Shown here: piece after piece, positions 2,279 to 10,574 of the stretch
Layout of the letters: every line of letters begins with the position of its first letter
Numbering within the stretch: position 1 is the stretch's first letter
From: Vallitaleaceae bacterium
GTDB lineage: Bacteria > Bacillota > Clostridia > Lachnospirales > Vallitaleaceae
NCBI GenBank assembly: GCA_029935405.1
Contig: JAOZKH010000016.1
Location: 1,351 to 35,835, forward strand
DNA length: 34,485 nucleotides
Direction: 5' to 3'
Program-made: the position numbers and the translations under genes
The notes under the pieces: model-generated
Databases searched by the model: none
Seen by the model: the letters and a program-made list of their open reading frames with translations, nothing else
What the model was told of the DNA's origin: nothing

Positions 2279-2719
2279 TTAAATAGATTGAATACCTAAA
2301 CCTATAGCTTCATGTTCAAAACCTCTTCGAGGAGAACCTATAAAACCATACAAAACAACTGCAATCCAATCTCCACCGGAAGATTCGCCAACAGCTAATT
2401 CACCTCTTATTACTGCAAATGATAATCCAGTAGTTCTAAGTACAGAGTCAAGAGCAATATCTCCACGACAATATCCACTAAGCGCTTCACTTACTGCGTG
2501 ATAAAGTGCATGTTCCTCATGATAGTTTTCACGAATCATGTCCTCTCTATAAACAGCAGTTTCAATAGATGCATATATTTTCTTAACATCCATAGTACCA
2601 ACTTGTCCGCGTAAAAGACGATATCCTTCTTCTTCATATTGCTTAATAAGTTGATTACCTGTTTTTTTATCAGACAGTGCCAAAGTTATTGCTATTTTAC
2701 CAATACCTAACTGTTCCAT
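2279..2719 (-). CDS. hutP: HutP, histidine-dependent RNA-binding antiterminator
   Basis: This 146-residue protein matches the Bacillus HutP family (about 148 residues). HutP binds L-histidine and Mg2+, then binds NAG-triplet repeats in the hut leader RNA and prevents a terminator hairpin from forming. The expected metal and histidine residues are visible: H70 and H74 in EEHALYHAVSEAL, H136 in GFEHEAIG, and conserved arginines R85 and R95 (TRG/LRT-like segments). The ATG is preceded by AGAGG. It is the last gene of the histidine operon, 53 bp after fchA, whereas in Bacillus hutP is the first gene. Being inside the operon it controls, it should create positive feedback once histidine is present. 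A matching target lies in the leader at 9461-9477. Confidence 0.92.
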   Translation of the reverse strand: MEQLGIGKIAITLALSDKKTGNQLIKQYEEEGYRLLRGQVGTMDVKKIYASIETAVYREDMIRENYHEEHALYHAVSEALSGYCRGDIALDSVLRTTGLSFAVIRGELAVGESSGGDWIAVVLYGFIGSPRRGFEHEAIGLGIQSI

Positions 2720-2741: not shown

Positions 2742-2789
2742 TAGATTGACAATGTATTAGACTGACAATATATTAGACTGACAACATAT
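2742..2789. repeat. Three tandem 16-bp repeats at the fchA-hutP junction
   Basis: The units are TAGATTGACAATGTAT (2742-2757), TAGACTGACAATATAT (2758-2773) and TAGACTGACAACATAT (2774-2789). The third unit encodes the last codons and part of the stop of fchA; the first two are intergenic, so copy-number change would alter the fchA end and the spacing to hutP. No function is evident. Confidence 0.85.
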
Positions 2790-3396
2790 TAAAAGCAGCT
2801 AAGGTTTCAGCTTCTATTGATAATGCAGTCTTTATTACTTCACTAATTTTTTCTTCCATGTCTTTAACAAAACTTTCATCTTTGATTGAATCAATATTTA
2901 CTTTCACATTTAGACAAGCAGACAGTACTGCTGTTCTTGATAACATAACTGCTACTAAGCCATCAGTTCTTGCATTTTTATTTCCTTTTTTCACAACAAC
3001 TGCTGCTAGTTTTTCAACTTCTAATGATTTTTTTGCCGCTTCAAAAGGTGTTATACTAGCTGCTTTTAATCCTTCTTGTATGGCTTTTGATCTTAATACC
3101 TTATCTTTATCTGTTGTTTTTGGCATAGAAAAAGCTTTCATAACAAGATTAAAGGCATCACTATCTTTTTCAATATCTTCAAGTAAGCTTTTTCGAAGTT
3201 CACTTGCTTTTGCTGCTATATCTACCATTTCATCGTTTACTTCAATATATTTTTTCTTACCTATTGTTATGTTTGCAACCATTTCAGCTAATGCGCCACT
3301 TAAACTTCCACATGCAGCAGCAACGCTTCCTCCACCTGGAACCGGCTCTTTAGATGCTGTTAAATTTCCAAATTCTTCTATTGATAATTTTTTCAT
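2773..3396 (-). CDS. fchA: Formimidoyltetrahydrofolate cyclodeaminase
   Basis: The 207-residue protein belongs to the FTCD cyclodeaminase family. It converts 5-formimino-tetrahydrofolate to 5,10-methenyl-tetrahydrofolate and ammonia in the cytoplasm. The N-terminal PVPGGGSVAAACGSLSGALAEM segment (shown by PGGGS at about residues 20-24) is the family hallmark, and the remainder is all-helical as expected. In animals this domain is fused to the formimidoyltransferase; here it is a separate gene, two genes downstream of ftcD in the same operon. The start ATG follows a GAGG ribosome-binding site. The C-terminal codons are made of the 16-bp tandem repeat at 2742-2789. The upstream 111-bp gap (3397-3507) is a purine-rich tract on the coding strand. 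Confidence 0.92.
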   Translation of the reverse strand: MKKLSIEEFGNLTASKEPVPGGGSVAAACGSLSGALAEMVANITIGKKKYIEVNDEMVDIAAKASELRKSLLEDIEKDSDAFNLVMKAFSMPKTTDKDKVLRSKAIQEGLKAASITPFEAAKKSLEVEKLAAVVVKKGNKNARTDGLVAVMLSRTAVLSACLNVKVNIDSIKDESFVKDMEEKISEVIKTALSIEAETLAAFNMLSV

Positions 3397-3507: not shown

Positions 3508-4773
3508 TTACTTGCTTATCCACACAATTTTGCCATTTTTTATAACTTGTTCTACAAGATTCATGCCTAAATGATAAGCCATAAAATCAATTGATGGTTT
3601 ATTAAGAATAATCATATCACCTTTCTTACCAATCTCAAGGCTACCTATTTCATTTTGTTTATTAAGAGCACATGCTCCGTTTATTGTAAGAGCTGTAATT
3701 ATTTCTTCAATAGTCATATGCATTTTAAGAGCAGAAAGACTAATAATTAATGGAATTGAATGTGTAGGACAACTTCCTGGATTAAAGTCTGAAGCTAAAG
3801 CCACACTACAACCACTATCTATCATTTTTCTTGCCTTAGCAAATGGTTCATCTAAACTAAATGCTGTTGCTGGTAATAATGTTGCTATTGTGTCACTATC
3901 TGCTAAATCCTTTATTCCTTGATCAGATACTGCCAAAAGATGATCTGCACTTGTTGCACCTACTTGTACCGCTAGTTCACTTCCTCCTAGCGATACAATT
4001 TCATCTGCATGTATTTTGCACTTAAGTCCTAATTTTTTAGCCTTTAGAAGATAGTATTTAGATTCTTCAACACTAAACACACCTTTTTCACAAAAAATAT
4101 CAGCAAATTCAGCAAGATTTTCTTCTAATACAATCGGCAGCACTTCGTTAATAATAAAATCTATATATTCTTTACCTCGACCTTTATAATCACTAGGCAC
4201 TGAGTGTGGCCCCAAAAATGTAGAAACAATATCAACCACATGTTCTTTATTTAATTCTTGCATAACCTTTAACTGTTTTAACTCAGTATCTTTATCAAGA
4301 CCATAACCGCTTTTACCTTCAACTGTTGTTACACCCATACTAAGCATATGATTAAGTCTATTCATTCCTACATGATATAGCTCATCAAATTCTGCTTTTC
4401 TTGTCATATTAACACTACTAAAAATTCCTCCACCGGCTTTTAGAATATCCATATAACTTTCACCAGCAAGACGCATTTTAAATTCTTGTTCTCTATATCC
4501 ACCAAAAACAAAATGTGTATGAGAATCAATAAAACCTGGTAATACAGTTTTGCCTGAGCAGTCAATAATCTTAGTTGTTACTCCATTATTATTATTTAGA
4601 ACAATATCTTCACTTAAGTCATTCATCGTTCCAACATATGTGATAATACTATCTTCTATAATAACACATCCGTTGGTAATAATATTAAGTTCCATCATAA
4701 GCTTGCCACGCTTTGGTGCCGTCCCAGAAACTGGCACTAATTGTTCTATATTAATTAACGCTAATCTACTCAT
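3508..4773 (-). CDS. hutI: Imidazolonepropionase
   Basis: HutI hydrolyses 4-imidazolone-5-propionate to N-formimino-L-glutamate, the third step of histidine breakdown. The metal-binding SHTHFVFGG motif of the amidohydrolase fold, the later HADE segment (KIHADEIVSLGGSELA) and the SDFNPGSCPT segment near the C-terminus all match the family. I place the start at the ATG at 4771-4773 (protein MSRLALINIEQL..., 421 residues) and not at the first in-frame Met at 4839: the family begins here, and the extra 22 residues would be read from inside ftcD. The gene overlaps the ftcD end by 8 bp, so translation is probably coupled; a weak AGG lies upstream. The last codons happen to contain a perfect DnaA-box 9-mer. 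Confidence 0.93.
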   Translation of the reverse strand: MSRLALINIEQLVPVSGTAPKRGKLMMELNIITNGCVIIEDSIITYVGTMNDLSEDIVLNNNNGVTTKIIDCSGKTVLPGFIDSHTHFVFGGYREQEFKMRLAGESYMDILKAGGGIFSSVNMTRKAEFDELYHVGMNRLNHMLSMGVTTVEGKSGYGLDKDTELKQLKVMQELNKEHVVDIVSTFLGPHSVPSDYKGRGKEYIDFIINEVLPIVLEENLAEFADIFCEKGVFSVEESKYYLLKAKKLGLKCKIHADEIVSLGGSELAVQVGATSADHLLAVSDQGIKDLADSDTIATLLPATAFSLDEPFAKARKMIDSGCSVALASDFNPGSCPTHSIPLIISLSALKMHMTIEEIITALTINGACALNKQNEIGSLEIGKKGDMIILNKPSIDFMAYHLGMNLVEQVIKNGKIVWISK

Positions 4774-5665
4774 TAAGTAACCTATATTCAAGAACTTGAT
4801 TAATAGAAAAATTTTCAAGTCCAAGATAATACTGAGCACTATCTACTAAAGCCTCTAGTGGAACTAATCCAATAACTTCACTCCCAAGTACATTGACACC
4901 ATAGCGCTTGCACTCCATCTTAACTGTTTCAAGCACACGATATATTGCTGTTTTTGAGTAATCAGTTAAATTCATAGATACTTCTACGATTCCACGTTCT
5001 TCAAGTTCAACACCCATCGCTTTACAGTATCTAAAACCACCATTCATATGGCGAATTTGTTTACCAATTTTAGTTGCTATTTCTAAATTATCTGTATCCA
5101 ACTTAATATTATAAGCTATTAATGGCATTCTAGCACCGATTGCTGTTACTCCACCTGTTGCATGAATAGTTTTTGGTCCAAAGTCAGGTATCCACTGCTC
5201 ATCTTCCATTTTTTTTGCCATTCCTTCAAACTGTCCTTTACGAACTTTTGCAAGATTAACTCTATGAGTTTGAGTTGCTGACTTTTCATATAAGAAGAAA
5301 GGGTATTCATACTTAGCACTAGCTTCTTTAGCAACTTCTTTAGCAAGTTCATCTGCTTCTTCAATCGTCATATTCTTAATAGGAATAAATGGAATAACAT
5401 CGACACAACCCATACGTGGATGTTGACCTTCATGTTTAGTCATATCAATATTTTTAATAGCAAGTCCAATAGCTTCTACTATTGCTTCTTTCATTGCTTT
5501 TGGCTCACCAATAACAGTTACAACACTTCTATTATGGTCTTCATCAGAACTATAATCAAGAAGTTTTACTCCCTTTTTACCTCGAAATGCATCAATGATT
5601 TTTTCAAGGTTTTTAAGATCACGACCTTCACTAAAATTTGGCACACATTCAACTATTTTATTCAT
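4766..5665 (-). CDS. ftcD: Glutamate formimidoyltransferase
   Basis: FtcD transfers the formimino group of N-formimino-L-glutamate to tetrahydrofolate and releases glutamate. The 299-residue protein starts MNKIVECVPNFSEGRD, the typical N-terminus of the formimidoyltransferase family, and contains the HPRMGCVDVIPFIPI segment (the folate-site region) and the ATGGVTAIGARMPLIAYN segment. Its length fits the stand-alone transferase without the cyclodeaminase domain, which is supplied by fchA downstream. The ATG follows AGGAGAG. There is no formiminoglutamase (hutG-type) or deiminase gene in the cluster, so this folate route is the apparent exit of the pathway here. The start of hutI overlaps its last codons. 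Confidence 0.94.
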   Translation of the reverse strand: MNKIVECVPNFSEGRDLKNLEKIIDAFRGKKGVKLLDYSSDEDHNRSVVTVIGEPKAMKEAIVEAIGLAIKNIDMTKHEGQHPRMGCVDVIPFIPIKNMTIEEADELAKEVAKEASAKYEYPFFLYEKSATQTHRVNLAKVRKGQFEGMAKKMEDEQWIPDFGPKTIHATGGVTAIGARMPLIAYNIKLDTDNLEIATKIGKQIRHMNGGFRYCKAMGVELEERGIVEVSMNLTDYSKTAIYRVLETVKMECKRYGVNVLGSEVIGLVPLEALVDSAQYYLGLENFSINQVLEYRLLNE

Positions 5666-5740: not shown

Positions 5741-8700
5741 TTATTTTGTGAGTTTATCAATTAACTTGTTACTTGCAACAAATGGTATCGTAATATGATT
5801 ATCTTTACCATATTCACGATTGTATTGCTCAACCGTTTCCATAGCATGTTCATTACGAGCCCAGTTTCTTCTTGCAACACCTACCATTGTATCCCATGGA
5901 ACGCTTGAAAGCAATATTTCATCTACTCTTTCGCTACCGTCAAGAACCATACCAAAACCACCATTAATTGCTTTTCCAATTCCAACACCTCCACCATTAT
6001 GAAGCGCTACTAAACTCATACCTCTTGCTGCATTTCCTGCAAAACATTGTATTGCCATATCAGCTGTAACATTACTACCGTCTTTAATATTAGATGTTTC
6101 TCTAAAAGTTGAATCCGTACCACCTGTATCATGATGATCTCGACCTAACATAATAGTTCCCACAACACCGTTACGTACCATTTCATTAAATTTAAGTGCA
6201 ATATCACGACGACCAATTGCATCTTGATATAATATTCTCGCCTTCGTTCCTACAACTAATTGATTCTTTTTTGCATCACGAATCCATATCCAATTATCTC
6301 TATCTTGACCACGACGATTAGGATCAATAACATCCATTGCCGCCTGATCTGTTTTATCAAGATCTTCCTCTTTGCCACTTAAGCATACCCATCTAAAAGG
6401 TCCATATCCATAATCAAATAACATAGGTCCCATTATATCTTCTACATATGATGGAAAAATAAAACCTTCACTTGTATCATTACCATTTTTTGCAATATCT
6501 GTTGCGCCTGCATCAAAAACAGCTTTCATAAATGCGTTTCCGTAATCAAAGAAATAAGTACCCATCTCAGATAACTTTTTAATCATCTCAAAGTGATGTT
6601 TAAGTGATTTATTAACTAATTTTCTAAAATATTCTTTATCTTCACGAAGTAATCTCGTTCTTTCATCAAAGTCTATTCCTTGAGGACAATAACCTCCATC
6701 ATATGGAACATGACAAGATGTTTGATCAGATAATAAGTCAATATGAATATTCTTATCAACTGCATATTCAAGAAGATCAATAATATTACCATGATAAGCT
6801 ATTGCAATAGTTTTTTTAGCCTCTTTATACTCTTTTGCTAGTGCAAATATTTCCTTTAAATCTGTAGATACTTTTGTTATCCATCCTTGTTTAATTCTTG
6901 TTTCAATTCTTGAATAATCTACTTCTGCAACAATTCCTACTCCACCAGCTATTTCTATAGCTTTTGGTTGTGCTCCACTCATACCTCCAAGTCCTGATGT
7001 TACAAATAAGTATCCTGAAAGATCTTCTGTATCACCAATTCCAAGTTTAAGCCTTCCTGCATTAACAAGTGTATTAAAGGTACCATGTACAATTCCTTGA
7101 GGCCCTATATACATAAAACCACCTGCTGTCATCTGACCATAACTTGAAACGCCCATTGCACAGGCTTTTGACCAATCAGTAGGATTATCAAACATGCCAA
7201 TCATAAGTCCATTAGTTACAATTACTCTAGGACTTCTCTTATGAGACTTAAATAATCCTAATGGATGCCCTGATGAAATAACTAATGTTTGCTCATCTGT
7301 TAATTGTTCTAGATACTTTTTGATTAATCTATACTGCATCCAATTTTGACAAACTTGTCCTGTTTCACCATATGTAACCAATTCATACGGATACAGGGAA
7401 ATATCAAAATCTAAATTATTATCAATCATAACTTGAATTGCTTTGCCTTCCGTACAATTTCCTTTATATTCTTCTATAGGTTTTCCATAGATATGTCCCT
7501 CTGGCCTAAACCTATAACCGTATATACGACCTTTAGTCATTAACTCTTCAAGAAACTCTGGTGCCACCTGGTCATGTAAATTTTTTGGAATATAACGAAG
7601 AGAATTTTTAAGTGCTAACTTAATCTCTCTTTCATTAAGTAATAATTCTCTCTTTGGCGCTCTTCTATATTGTGAATCAATTTCAGGCATTTTTGGTAAT
7701 GTATTATCTAATTTAATAATTACATTATCAGTATCTTTATCTATATTAATTTCTTTTTCTTTGTCTATGTCATATATTAGTGTTGTTAATTTTTCACTTG
7801 TTATTAGTGTTTCACATGAATTAATATCATCATACATTTCTCTATCAGCAGTTAAAATAGGAACTACGCTTCTAATCATTGTATATGCACCTTTTGTAAC
7901 TTTACCAAGGGCTTTTTTCTTGACTTTTTGTGTGTCTTCACTACTATATATATCTTCACTCTTATTTGAAGTATTTACAGAAAGTTGACTTTGCTGTTCT
8001 CTTCTAAGATCTATCGCTTGTGTTGCACACATTAATTCCATAGAAATAACACGTCTTACATTTTTAAGAATCTCTCTAGCTTTTCTTGCTCCAATAGTAC
8101 CCATTGATACGTGGTCTTCTTGGTTTGCTGAAGAAGGAATACTATCTACACTTGCTGGATGTGATAATATTTTATTTTCTGATACTAATGCTGCCGCTGA
8201 ATACTGGACAATCATAAATCCAGAATTAAGACCACCTTCTTTTACTAAAAACCCTGGTAAACCACTTAGAGCTGGATTAACTAAACGCTCAATTCTTCTC
8301 TCTGAAATACTAGCAAGTTCTGAAAGTGCAATTCCCATAAAGTCAAATGCTAATGCTACTGGTTGACCATGGAAGTTACCACTTGAAATACCTTCCTTAG
8401 TATCGCTAAAAATAATTGGATTGTCAGTTACAGAATTCATCTCTATTTCTACTTTTTCTTTAACAAAATTAATTGCATCACGACTAGCTCCATGTACCTG
8501 TGGTGTACATCGAATAGAATATGCATCTTGTACTTTTACTTCACCTTGAACCGTTGTCATTTCGCTACCTTTTAGCATATTTAAAATATTAAGTGCAGAT
8601 TTCATTTGGCCATCATGTGGTCTTACCTCATGAATTCTTGGGTCAAGCGCTGTCGTTATTCCAAGTAATGCTTCATATGTCATAGAAGCACTTAAATCGG

Positions 8701-9364
8701 CAATATCTAATAATTTATCTGCATCATAAACCGTATGTGCTCCAACAGAAGTCATAACTTGGGTTCCATTAATTAAAGCAAGTCCTTCTTTTGATGTTAA
8801 TTCAACAGTACTAATATCTGCTTTTTTCATCGCTTCTTCACCTGACATGATTTCACCACAATATTCAGCCTTACCAAGACCTAACATAGGCAATACCATA
8901 TGTGCCAAAGGAACCAAGTCACCACTTGCTCCAAGCGAACCTTTTTCTGGTACTATCGGATGTACTTTTTTATTTAACATTTCAACCATTGTTTGAATAG
9001 TTTTAAAACGAATACCTGAGTAACCTTTTGAAAGATTGTTAATTCTAAGAAGCATAATTCCTCTAACAATTTCTGTATCAAAATTTTCACCACCACCAAC
9101 GGCATGAGAAATAATTAGATTTTTCTGAAGTTGTTTAGATTCTTCTTTATTAATAACTACTTCACTAAAGTTTCCAAATCCAGTTGTAACTCCGTATACA
9201 ACCTTACCTTCTTCAACAAATTCATCAACTACTGCTCTTGAATCACATATTTTTTCCTTTGCATCATTTGCTATTTGAAGTTTTATATTATGTCTTGTTA
9301 CTGCAATAAACTCATCTAAAGTCAAATGAATACCATCAATAGTTACTTTATCATATTTTTGCAT
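5741..9364 (-). CDS. HutH-HutU fusion: histidine ammonia-lyase / urocanate hydratase
   Basis: One uninterrupted 1207-codon frame encodes two complete enzymes. Residues 1 to about 530 are histidine ammonia-lyase (histidine to trans-urocanate and NH3): the YGVTTGFGNF segment (57-66), the self-cyclising A-S-G of the MIO cofactor in GSLGASGDL (146-148), SGNFHGQP (328-335) and QEDHVS (415-420) are all present. Residues about 548-1207 are urocanase (urocanate to imidazolonepropionate, NAD+ as prosthetic group): IKLDNTLP, ALKNSLRYIP (584-593), RFRPEG, GQMTAGG (743-749), GLGGMSGAQ (791-799), SDQTSC and GRDHHDTGGTD. The linker is only about 15 charged residues, and I see no ribosome-binding site for a separate hutU start. 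The HutH part carries an extra stretch of about 25 residues (456-482) between AIDLR and the conserved LGKVTKGAY. The start ATG follows GTGAGG. It is the first gene of the hut operon, behind the attenuator leader. Confidence 0.95.
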   Translation of the reverse strand: MQKYDKVTIDGIHLTLDEFIAVTRHNIKLQIANDAKEKICDSRAVVDEFVEEGKVVYGVTTGFGNFSEVVINKEESKQLQKNLIISHAVGGGENFDTEIVRGIMLLRINNLSKGYSGIRFKTIQTMVEMLNKKVHPIVPEKGSLGASGDLVPLAHMVLPMLGLGKAEYCGEIMSGEEAMKKADISTVELTSKEGLALINGTQVMTSVGAHTVYDADKLLDIADLSASMTYEALLGITTALDPRIHEVRPHDGQMKSALNILNMLKGSEMTTVQGEVKVQDAYSIRCTPQVHGASRDAINFVKEKVEIEMNSVTDNPIIFSDTKEGISSGNFHGQPVALAFDFMGIALSELASISERRIERLVNPALSGLPGFLVKEGGLNSGFMIVQYSAAALVSENKILSHPASVDSIPSSANQEDHVSMGTIGARKAREILKNVRRVISMELMCATQAIDLRREQQSQLSVNTSNKSEDIYSSEDTQKVKKKALGKVTKGAYTMIRSVVPILTADREMYDDINSCETLITSEKLTTLIYDIDKEKEINIDKDTDNVIIKLDNTLPKMPEIDSQYRRAPKRELLLNEREIKLALKNSLRYIPKNLHDQVAPEFLEELMTKGRIYGYRFRPEGHIYGKPIEEYKGNCTEGKAIQVMIDNNLDFDISLYPYELVTYGETGQVCQNWMQYRLIKKYLEQLTDEQTLVISSGHPLGLFKSHKRSPRVIVTNGLMIGMFDNPTDWSKACAMGVSSYGQMTAGGFMYIGPQGIVHGTFNTLVNAGRLKLGIGDTEDLSGYLFVTSGLGGMSGAQPKAIEIAGGVGIVAEVDYSRIETRIKQGWITKVSTDLKEIFALAKEYKEAKKTIAIAYHGNIIDLLEYAVDKNIHIDLLSDQTSCHVPYDGGYCPQGIDFDERTRLLREDKEYFRKLVNKSLKHHFEMIKKLSEMGTYFFDYGNAFMKAVFDAGATDIAKNGNDTSEGFIFPSYVEDIMGPMLFDYGYGPFRWVCLSGKEEDLDKTDQAAMDVIDPNRRGQDRDNWIWIRDAKKNQLVVGTKARILYQDAIGRRDIALKFNEMVRNGVVGTIMLGRDHHDTGGTDSTFRETSNIKDGSNVTADMAIQCFAGNAARGMSLVALHNGGGVGIGKAINGGFGMVLDGSERVDEILLSSVPWDTMVGVARRNWARNEHAMETVEQYNREYGKDNHITIPFVASNKLIDKLTK

Positions 9365-9402: not shown

Positions 9403-9448
9403 ACAAAAATAAAAAAAAACAAATAAACTGTACTTAAACAGATTATTT
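9403..9448 (-). terminator. Leader terminator (attenuator) of the hut operon
   Basis: On the coding strand, AAATAA-T-CTGT, a 6-nt loop and ACAG-T-TTATTT form a stem (9448 to 9421) with one T-T mismatch, followed by G and ten T residues. This is a rho-independent terminator between the promoter and the hutH-hutU start, so most transcripts should stop here unless the hairpin is opened. The hairpin is AT-rich, so its strength is uncertain. Confidence 0.75.
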
Positions 9449-9460
9449 GCCTCCATATAT

Positions 9461-9477
9461 CTAATGTCTATAGGCTT
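9461..9477 (-). promoter_or_regulatory. Candidate HutP-binding triplets in the hut leader
   Basis: Reading the RNA sense: AAG-CCTA-TAG-ACAT-TAG, three NAG triplets each separated by exactly 4 nt. That is the spacing reported for the Bacillus HutP target (NAG repeats with 4-nt spacers). The site ends 12 nt before the terminator stem. A cluster of less regularly spaced TAG/AAG/GAG triplets lies downstream of the T-tract (about 9370-9395). Confidence 0.7.
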
Positions 9478-9485
9478 CTTTCTTC

Positions 9486-9514
9486 ATTGTATATTATTCC
9501 TTGGTAATTTGCAA
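9486..9514 (-). promoter_or_regulatory. Promoter of the hut operon
   Basis: On the minus strand a -35 TTGCAA (9509-9514) and a -10 TACAAT (9486-9491) are 17 bp apart. Transcription should begin near 9479, giving a leader of about 115 nt. Just upstream, 9517-9528 is a small CG-rich patch that weakly resembles a cre (CcpA) site, with several mismatches; I do not call it. Confidence 0.75.
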
Positions 9515-9710: not shown

Positions 9711-10574
9711 TTAACTCTGCAATTTCTTTGCTAATTCAACAAATTCATCTAAATTCAATGCTTCTCCTCTTATCGTTACAGAAATGCCTAGTTCAGTGAG
9801 TGCTTCTCTAATCTTGTCCTTTGATAATTCTAATTCTTCTTGATGTGATAGTGTATTTACTAAGGTTTTTCGTCGCTGTTGAAAAGCACCTCTAATCACT
9901 TTAAATAAAAACACATCATCTAGACCCATATCTATATATTTATCAGTAGCCTTTAATCTTATTACAGAGGAGCCCACCTTTGGCCTTGGTATAAAACAAC
10001 TTGGTGGTACTTGCACAACTACTTTTGGTTCTGAATAATATTTGACTGCTAAAGTTAATGATCCAAAATCTTTGGTTGATGGATTAGCTTGCATTCTATC
10101 TGCTACTTCTTTTTGCACCATTACTGTAATAGAATCTAGTGGTATATGAGTTTCGAAAATTTTCATGATAATTGGTGTCGTAATATAATACGGTAAATTA
10201 GCAATAATTTTCACTTTTTTTCCTTGCCATTTTTCCTCAATTAATTGATTTAAGTCTATTTTCAAGACATCTTGTTCAATAATGGTTACATTATCATAAT
10301 CAATAAGCGTTTCTTCTAAAATCGGTATTAACTTTTTATCTATTTCTATTGCAATGACTTCCCGTGCATTATCTGCCAAATATTGTGTTAAGCTCCCTAT
10401 ACCTGGTCCTATTTCAATAACAACATCATCTTTTGATAATTCTGCGCCACTAACAATCTCTTCAAGTATTCCCTGATCTACTAAAAAGTTTTGCCCATAT
10501 TTTTTCTTGAGATGAAATCCATATCGTTCCATTATTAATTTAGTTCTAAGCGGTGTTGAAATTTTATTATTCAT
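9711..10574 (-). CDS. rsmA: 16S rRNA dimethyladenosine transferase
   Basis: RsmA (KsgA) dimethylates two adjacent adenosines in the 3'-terminal helix of 16S rRNA during small-subunit assembly, using S-adenosylmethionine. The 287-residue protein shows KKYGQNFLVDQ near the N-terminus, the SAM-binding EIGPGIGSLT (54-63) and the catalytic NLPYYI (126-131). Length and motifs are normal for Firmicutes. It is a monocistronic unit: its own promoter lies in the gap shared with the divergent ArsR gene, and a strong terminator follows. Upstream of the ATG is AAGGA. Confidence 0.95.
   Translation of the reverse strand: MNNKISTPLRTKLIMERYGFHLKKKYGQNFLVDQGILEEIVSGAELSKDDVVIEIGPGIGSLTQYLADNAREVIAIEIDKKLIPILEETLIDYDNVTIIEQDVLKIDLNQLIEEKWQGKKVKIIANLPYYITTPIIMKIFETHIPLDSITVMVQKEVADRMQANPSTKDFGSLTLAVKYYSEPKVVVQVPPSCFIPRPKVGSSVIRLKATDKYIDMGLDDVFLFKVIRGAFQQRRKTLVNTLSHQEELELSKDKIREALTELGISVTIRGEALNLDEFVELAKKLQS

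Follow-up and report, generated by a model that had tools for sequence, protein, structure and literature searches.

The leader of the hut operon in the window (the whole 34,485-nucleotide stretch of Vallitaleaceae DNA analysed herein) appears to be a HutP-controlled transcription attenuator with a competing antiterminator helix, a reading to which we assign a probability of roughly 0.85 on the basis of sequence comparison. It would most likely act as a switch that stops transcription unless histidine-loaded HutP holds an alternative fold of the RNA. This reading was adopted because of the homology of the element, the covariation found for both helices, the register of the NAG triplets, the intact hutP gene, and the linkage of the element to hutH. 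The original prediction had already placed a HutP-type attenuator ahead of the hut operon, and homologous leaders, including that of a Bacillus locus (L116), supported this proposal strongly.

Anatomy of the leader and of the hut locus

The features of the leader are as follows.

9486-9514, minus strand: predicted sigma-70-type promoter, TTGCAA-17-TACAAT (consensus scan, 9/12)
9410-9478, minus strand: putative HutP attenuator element, antiterminator/terminator switch (window-free covariance model, 46.4 bits)
9472-9475, minus strand: 5' strand of the antiterminator helix, GCCT (pairs with 9449-9452; covariation over 33 leaders)
9468-9470, minus strand: NAG triplet 1, TAG (both A and G unchanged across the 45 distinct cores)
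9461-9463, minus strand: NAG triplet 2, TAG (likewise no change of A or G across the 45 cores)
9454-9456, minus strand: position of NAG triplet 3, degenerate, ATG (NAG in 44 of 45 distinct cores)
9449-9452, minus strand: shared strand AGGC, both 3' strand of the antiterminator and 5' part of the terminator (pair counts support both helices)
9416-9453, minus strand: intrinsic terminator hairpin (consensus helix of 15 pairs, 10 of them with two-sided changes)
9405-9419, minus strand: T-tract, T9-A-T5 (from the sequence)

From its -10 box, the minus strand reads TACAAT..AAGAAGCCTATAGACATTAGATATATGGAGGCAAATAATCTGTTTAAGTACAGTTTATTTGTTTTTTTTTATTTTTG, and the transcript is predicted to start at around 9479; promoter-like boxes were also found just upstream of the element in relatives. 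This strand indeed carries the promoter-like boxes, the hairpin, and, at 9477-9461, the three triplets (AAG CCTA TAG ACAT TAG) that had been claimed originally, and an intrinsic terminator (9453-9416 plus nine T) lies between the promoter and the hut structural gene. The hairpin core, CAAATAAtCTGT-TTAAGT-ACAGtTTATTTG, occupies 9449-9420, and the tract behind it, which had been described as ten T, consists of nine T in a row (9419-9411) followed by A and five T. One T/T mismatch caused a simple terminator scan to miss this hairpin. In the window, the terminator base pairs with the T-tract, several of these pairs being G.U, and the hairpin, at about -13.4 to -13.7 kcal/mol, was the weakest of the leader set. 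The leader RNA folded better than its shuffles (z = -3.4).

The genes downstream of this leader are listed below.

5741-9364, minus strand: hutH-hutU fusion gene, histidine ammonia-lyase plus urocanate hydratase, 1207 aa (ATG at 9364)
4766-5665, minus strand: ftcD, glutamate formimidoyltransferase (TIGR02024, 409 bits)
3508-4839, minus strand: hutI, imidazolonepropionase (TIGR01224, 458 bits)
2773-3396, minus strand: formiminotransferase-cyclodeaminase domain protein, FchA-like (PF04961)
2279-2719, minus strand: hutP, histidine-responsive antiterminator protein (PF09021 and NF002838)

The gene order 3' of the leader is hutHU-ftcD-hutI-fchA-hutP, with hutP as the last gene of the operon. The hutI reading frame as listed overlaps ftcD (3508-4839 versus 4766-5665), and its true start is probably located downstream of the listed one. 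In the window, hutH and hutU constitute one 1207-aa frame with a linker of ~100 aa between them; they are separate genes in the close relatives checked (L042, L043, and L045-L047). On the 3' side of hutP, positions 2211-2270 hold a long near-perfect palindrome, ATCAGTGGTTAAGGTGTCAAAAGTA...TACTTTTGACACCCTAACCACTGAT, without a T-tract, which is probably the operon terminator. Upstream of the leader, rsmA ends at 9711 and possesses its own terminator at 9611-9587, and thus the terminator before hutH is not part of rsmA.

HutP of the window and its distribution

The HutP encoded in the window matched PF09021 (E 2e-27) and the NCBIfam HutP equivalog NF002838 (159 bits, cutoff 155), and it shared 47% identity with the PDB entry for B. 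subtilis HutP (1wmq, E 7.5e-36). Its His70, His74, and His136 aligned with the conserved histidines of the family, which were invariant in 83/83 HutP alignments, bearing out the earlier statement that a HutP with three metal-binding histidines is encoded in the same operon. The role of these three residues as metal ligands is known from published work.

Hut-type HutP is rare near this genome. The broad Pfam family was detected in one of the 22 genomes of the family and in 3 of 295 in the order, and the HutP equivalog in 7 of 391 genomes of the class; HutP was not found in the other 21 family genomes, nor hutH in three other genomes of the same genus. Across the phylum, PF09021 matches were common (257/398 genomes). 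At the best 30 of these loci no recognisable hut gene was found within ~1.5 kb, and the phylum matches were therefore left out of the hut-type HutP set. Many PF09021 proteins of Clostridia showed little similarity to true HutP.

Common architecture of homologous hut leaders

Scanning of GTDB genomes with the HutP alignment yielded 80 loci, which fall in Clostridia, Sedimentibacter, Dethiosulfatibacter, Sporomusa, Bacilli, and Atribacteria, and ~50 homologous hut leaders were obtained from the HutP relatives on these 80 contigs. Many of the loci carry hut genes, either in the order hutH-hutU-ftcD-hutI-fchA-hutP, with hutU first, or with hutP first. Conservation of the NAG spacing, which had been put forward as a check, was evident in related leaders: three NAG triplets at a period of 7 were present in 36 of 57 extracted 200-nt hutH leaders against 3.6 expected, the maximum of 300 shuffles being 10. 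Alignment of the ~50 leaders in their own register revealed the common architecture GCCYA-NAG-N4-NAG-N4-NAG-RRGGC, which runs directly into the terminator hairpin. L116 encodes a HutP with 99% identity to the B. subtilis protein whose crystal structure is in the PDB, and the L116 leader, which reads GCCCATAGATCTTAGGCGATAGGGGGC...GCCCCTTTTT, carries the same element; this B. subtilis-type element aligned end to end with the family element.

Two variations were observed among these loci. In L070, L071, and L072, two tandem HutP elements with the antiterminators CTACTC/GAGTAG precede hutH. The hutU-first operons of L053-L065 (Sedimentibacter and relatives) have no HutP element in front of hutU, and many of them have a TAGACG-N5-TAGACG repeat beside the promoter, and this repeat upstream of hutU is possibly the site of another regulator.

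Two mutually exclusive helices

In all lineages, the 5' and 3' flanks of the NAG loop were found to pair in one register, the resulting antiterminator being a helix of 4-7 bp (only 4 bp in the window) that closes the loop with the three NAG triplets. The pairs are GCC/GGC in most leaders, ACC/GGT in L042 and several Sporomusa-type loci, TAACCC/GGGTTA in L099, CTACTC/GAGTAG in L070-L072, and CACCT/AGGTG in Mammaliicoccus. Over 33 distinct leaders, 81.8% of cells were paired (68.3% when shuffled) and 39 two-sided changes were counted (17.4 when shuffled). The covariation of this helix was 0.458 against 0.216 shuffled (0/500), with slid registers giving at most 0.154, and that of the terminator helix was 0.607 against 0.269 shuffled (0/500), although the phylogenetic relatedness of the leaders means that these shuffle counts overstate the significance. 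The same antiterminator helix was proposed by RNAalifold unprompted. Furthermore, changes in the shared strand were matched on both of its partner strands, as in ACC/GGT/ACC (L042), TAACCC/GGGTTA/TAACCC (L099), and ACTC/GAGT/ACTC (L070). Since both helices need the strand 9452-9449, the antiterminator and the terminator exclude each other. An outer helix, CCUAUA/UAUAGG, of the minimum-energy fold was also considered and rejected, being absent by eye in L042 and formable only after the terminator has passed.

Across the set, the antiterminator alone is weak, at -1 to -8 kcal/mol with one positive outlier, whereas the terminators range from -14 to -43 kcal/mol. In the window, the antiterminator of about -3.6 kcal/mol is too weak alone against the terminator of -13.4 kcal/mol. 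Given a weak antiterminator and a strong terminator, the former must be stabilised by something, and by analogy with the published biochemistry of HutP (PMC7430163) this stabiliser would be HutP bound on the NAG loop.

In the proposed mechanism, RNA polymerase would start at about 9479. When histidine is lacking, the RNA would fold into the terminator hairpin 9453-9416 and transcription would stop at the T-tract. When histidine is present, HutP together with L-histidine and Mg2+ would bind the NAG triplets in the single-stranded loop and clamp the loop ends, with 9475-9472 (GCCU) pairing with 9452-9449 (AGGC). This short antiterminator helix would remove the 5' strand of the terminator and allow read-through into hutHU-ftcD-hutI-fchA-hutP.

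Attenuation by HutP could also be pictured without any antiterminator helix, with the protein covering NAG at the terminator base and so blocking the hairpin. A review describes HutP as binding directly to the terminator repeats (PMC8934654), and the terminator stem of relatives does include the A and G of triplet 3 in its base (columns 25-26, paired with 68-69). Such a mechanism would, however, leave unexplained the covariation of the 5' flank with the 5' strand of the terminator in several lineages, and direct occlusion would be weak in the window, where triplet 3 is not NAG; we therefore regard it as unlikely. In B. subtilis, antitermination by HutP, its dependence on histidine and Mg2+, and two NAG clusters have been published (PMC7430163). 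The passages on HutP consulted in PMC8934654 and PMC7430163 make no mention of an antiterminator closing helix, and the title of Oda 2004, cited in PMC12456014, names a 'hut antiterminator RNA'.

Triplet register and the degenerate third triplet

In the register of the family, the triplets of the window are TAG (9470-9468), TAG (9463-9461), and ATG (9456-9454), the last of which touches the terminator base. The AAG at 9477-9475, previously read as the first triplet, has a G that belongs to the antiterminator strand GCCT. The alignment assigned the window the same geometry as Bacillus, and the different geometry that had been suggested for HutP here was attributed to this misassignment of the triplets. 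As a real fourth triplet, the 5' in-register AAG was discarded, since a NAG at that position occurred in 11 of the 33 leaders having the conserved G, about as expected from base composition.

A second site formed by triplets after the T-tract, as the original prediction had envisaged, was not borne out by the relatives, among which 2 of 46 leaders had three NAG at a period of 7 after the terminator (0.8 expected). Nor was a second NAG cluster conserved inside the terminators (97 AG, barely above the 82 given by composition; at most one NAG in 17/49 terminators). In place of the second cluster described ~20 nt downstream for B. subtilis (PMC7430163), the window has only two irregular NAG, inside its terminator. 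Judging from these leaders, a second cluster would not be family-wide, and so not defining for HutP attenuators.

The AUG at the third triplet makes this genome the only exception among 45 distinct cores, and the presence of only two canonical NAG in the loop of the window speaks against the attenuator reading, as does the short antiterminator of 4 bp. The loss of triplet 3 might point to a decaying element, which would have been uncoupled from HutP by it and would now be a partial terminator acting constitutively within an operon gained by horizontal transfer. The window terminator, the weakest of the set at -13.7 kcal/mol, would fit such decay, as would the absence of hutH from the 3 same-genus genomes and of HutP from the other 21 family genomes. 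On the other hand, the locus retains HutP, promoter, and terminator in intact form, together with two intact triplets and the antiterminator pairs, and the 5' in-register AAG could serve as an alternative site, so that decay appears improbable. If the leader is a HutP attenuator as proposed, the element would still work with AUG as its third triplet, probably with a reduced affinity for HutP that is offset by a terminator weaker than any other in the set. On this leader, HutP may use two canonical triplets or a shifted AAG-TAG-TAG register, or may have lost much of its affinity.

Covariance-model searches and linkage to hutH

The covariance model R2, which was built from relatives without the window and includes L116, matched 9478-9410 with 46.4 bits (E 5e-11 in the window, 4e-9 in the genome), the next match scoring 12 bits within the window and ~21 bits (20.8) across the whole genome. 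No other HutP element rose above noise in the whole-genome search with this model. A match at E <= 0.001 was obtained in 21 of 22 HutP genomes, and the best two matches in 20 HutP-less genomes (41 and 33 bits) were plain terminators without triplets. Four genomes have a hutH that lies apart from the operon (L139, L144, L146, and L149), and in every case the element accompanied the remote hutH. The hutU-first Sedimentibacter operons had seemed to lack the element; this absence proved only apparent, the element being found before hutH elsewhere.

Among Rfam families, including T-box and riboswitches, none exceeded its gathering threshold on the window (best chance matches E 0.37 and 0.88). That the leader is an unrelated one (riboswitch, T-box, or simple terminator) carrying triplets by chance is scarcely credible: the triplet pattern alone is not significant in the AT-rich window (17 matches against 11.9 expected), but a chance origin is already very unlikely given the match of the window-free model, and the Rfam result, the conservation and covariation across phyla, and the separate rsmA terminator at 9611-9587 argue against it as well.

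Possible extent of the HutP regulon

Elements were also located before amino-acid permeases (L080, L082-L084, L087, and L104), hutG-like arginase-family genes (L079, L086, and L098), solute-binding proteins (L075 and L103), and genes for a Na+/H+-antiporter-family transporter (L156), glutamate dehydrogenase (L099), a corrinoid protein (L088), and a hisC-like aminotransferase (L091). Scores were weak for some of these additional elements, and the single cases are to be taken as leads. In many Bacilli and Sporomusa relatives, the 5' region of hutP after the promoter (about -35 to -100; L082-L120) contains NAG-N4-NAG-N4-NAG without a terminator. Such terminator-less triplets were present upstream of hutP in 23 of 55 leaders against 2.3 expected, which suggests autoregulation by HutP. 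CodY sites in the B. subtilis hutP operator are also described in the literature.

We consider it reasonably likely that the HutP box represents an uncatalogued, widespread cis-regulatory RNA family of Clostridia, Sporomusa relatives, Bacilli, and Atribacteria, in which the HutP ring clamps the NAG loop so that the 4-7 bp antiterminator forms, with a regulon that takes in amino-acid uptake and hutG-like genes besides the hut enzymes, and with a probable terminator-less autoregulatory version at the 5' end of hutP in Bacilli. To our knowledge, HutP antitermination is textbook material but has been studied in one Bacillus operon. HutP attenuation as a kind is thus already known, and the sharper claim here would be the comparative mechanism. 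Reviews explain HutP mostly as a protein covering the terminator; what is gained is a definition of the HutP site as a conserved RNA together with covariation evidence for a closing helix of the antiterminator. The covariance model finds predicted HutP targets in anaerobes and Atribacteria; our literature search found no paper on HutP leaders outside Bacillus and no study of histidine control in anaerobes and Atribacteria. The mechanism can be reduced to a simple compensatory-mutation test, and the natural variant with AUG in place of the third NAG lets one ask how many triplets HutP needs.

Comparison with known systems

The window resembles the hut system of B. subtilis in having a HutP with the same conserved histidines and NAG triplet positions 4 nt apart that lie directly 5' of, and overlap, an intrinsic terminator before hutH. 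The Bacillus operon begins with hutP and has its switch between that gene and hutH, whereas in the window the operon opens with the switch and closes with hutP. The window further differs from B. subtilis in lacking a regular second NAG cluster, in the AUG of triplet 3, and in the fusion of hutH with hutU.

TRAP and the trp leader likewise combine a ring-like protein with regularly spaced NAG triplets. TRAP binds about 11 triplets spaced 2-3 nt apart and causes termination, whereas the three triplet positions of the window, 4 nt apart, would favour read-through. The antiterminator RNAs (RAT) of BglG, SacY, and LicT differ from the HutP system in protein fold and in RNA, HutP reading triplets in a large single-stranded loop and the RAT being a short structured hairpin. 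As in the mechanism proposed here, the protein of these RAT systems stabilises an RNA structure that excludes the terminator, as outlined in PMC8934654.
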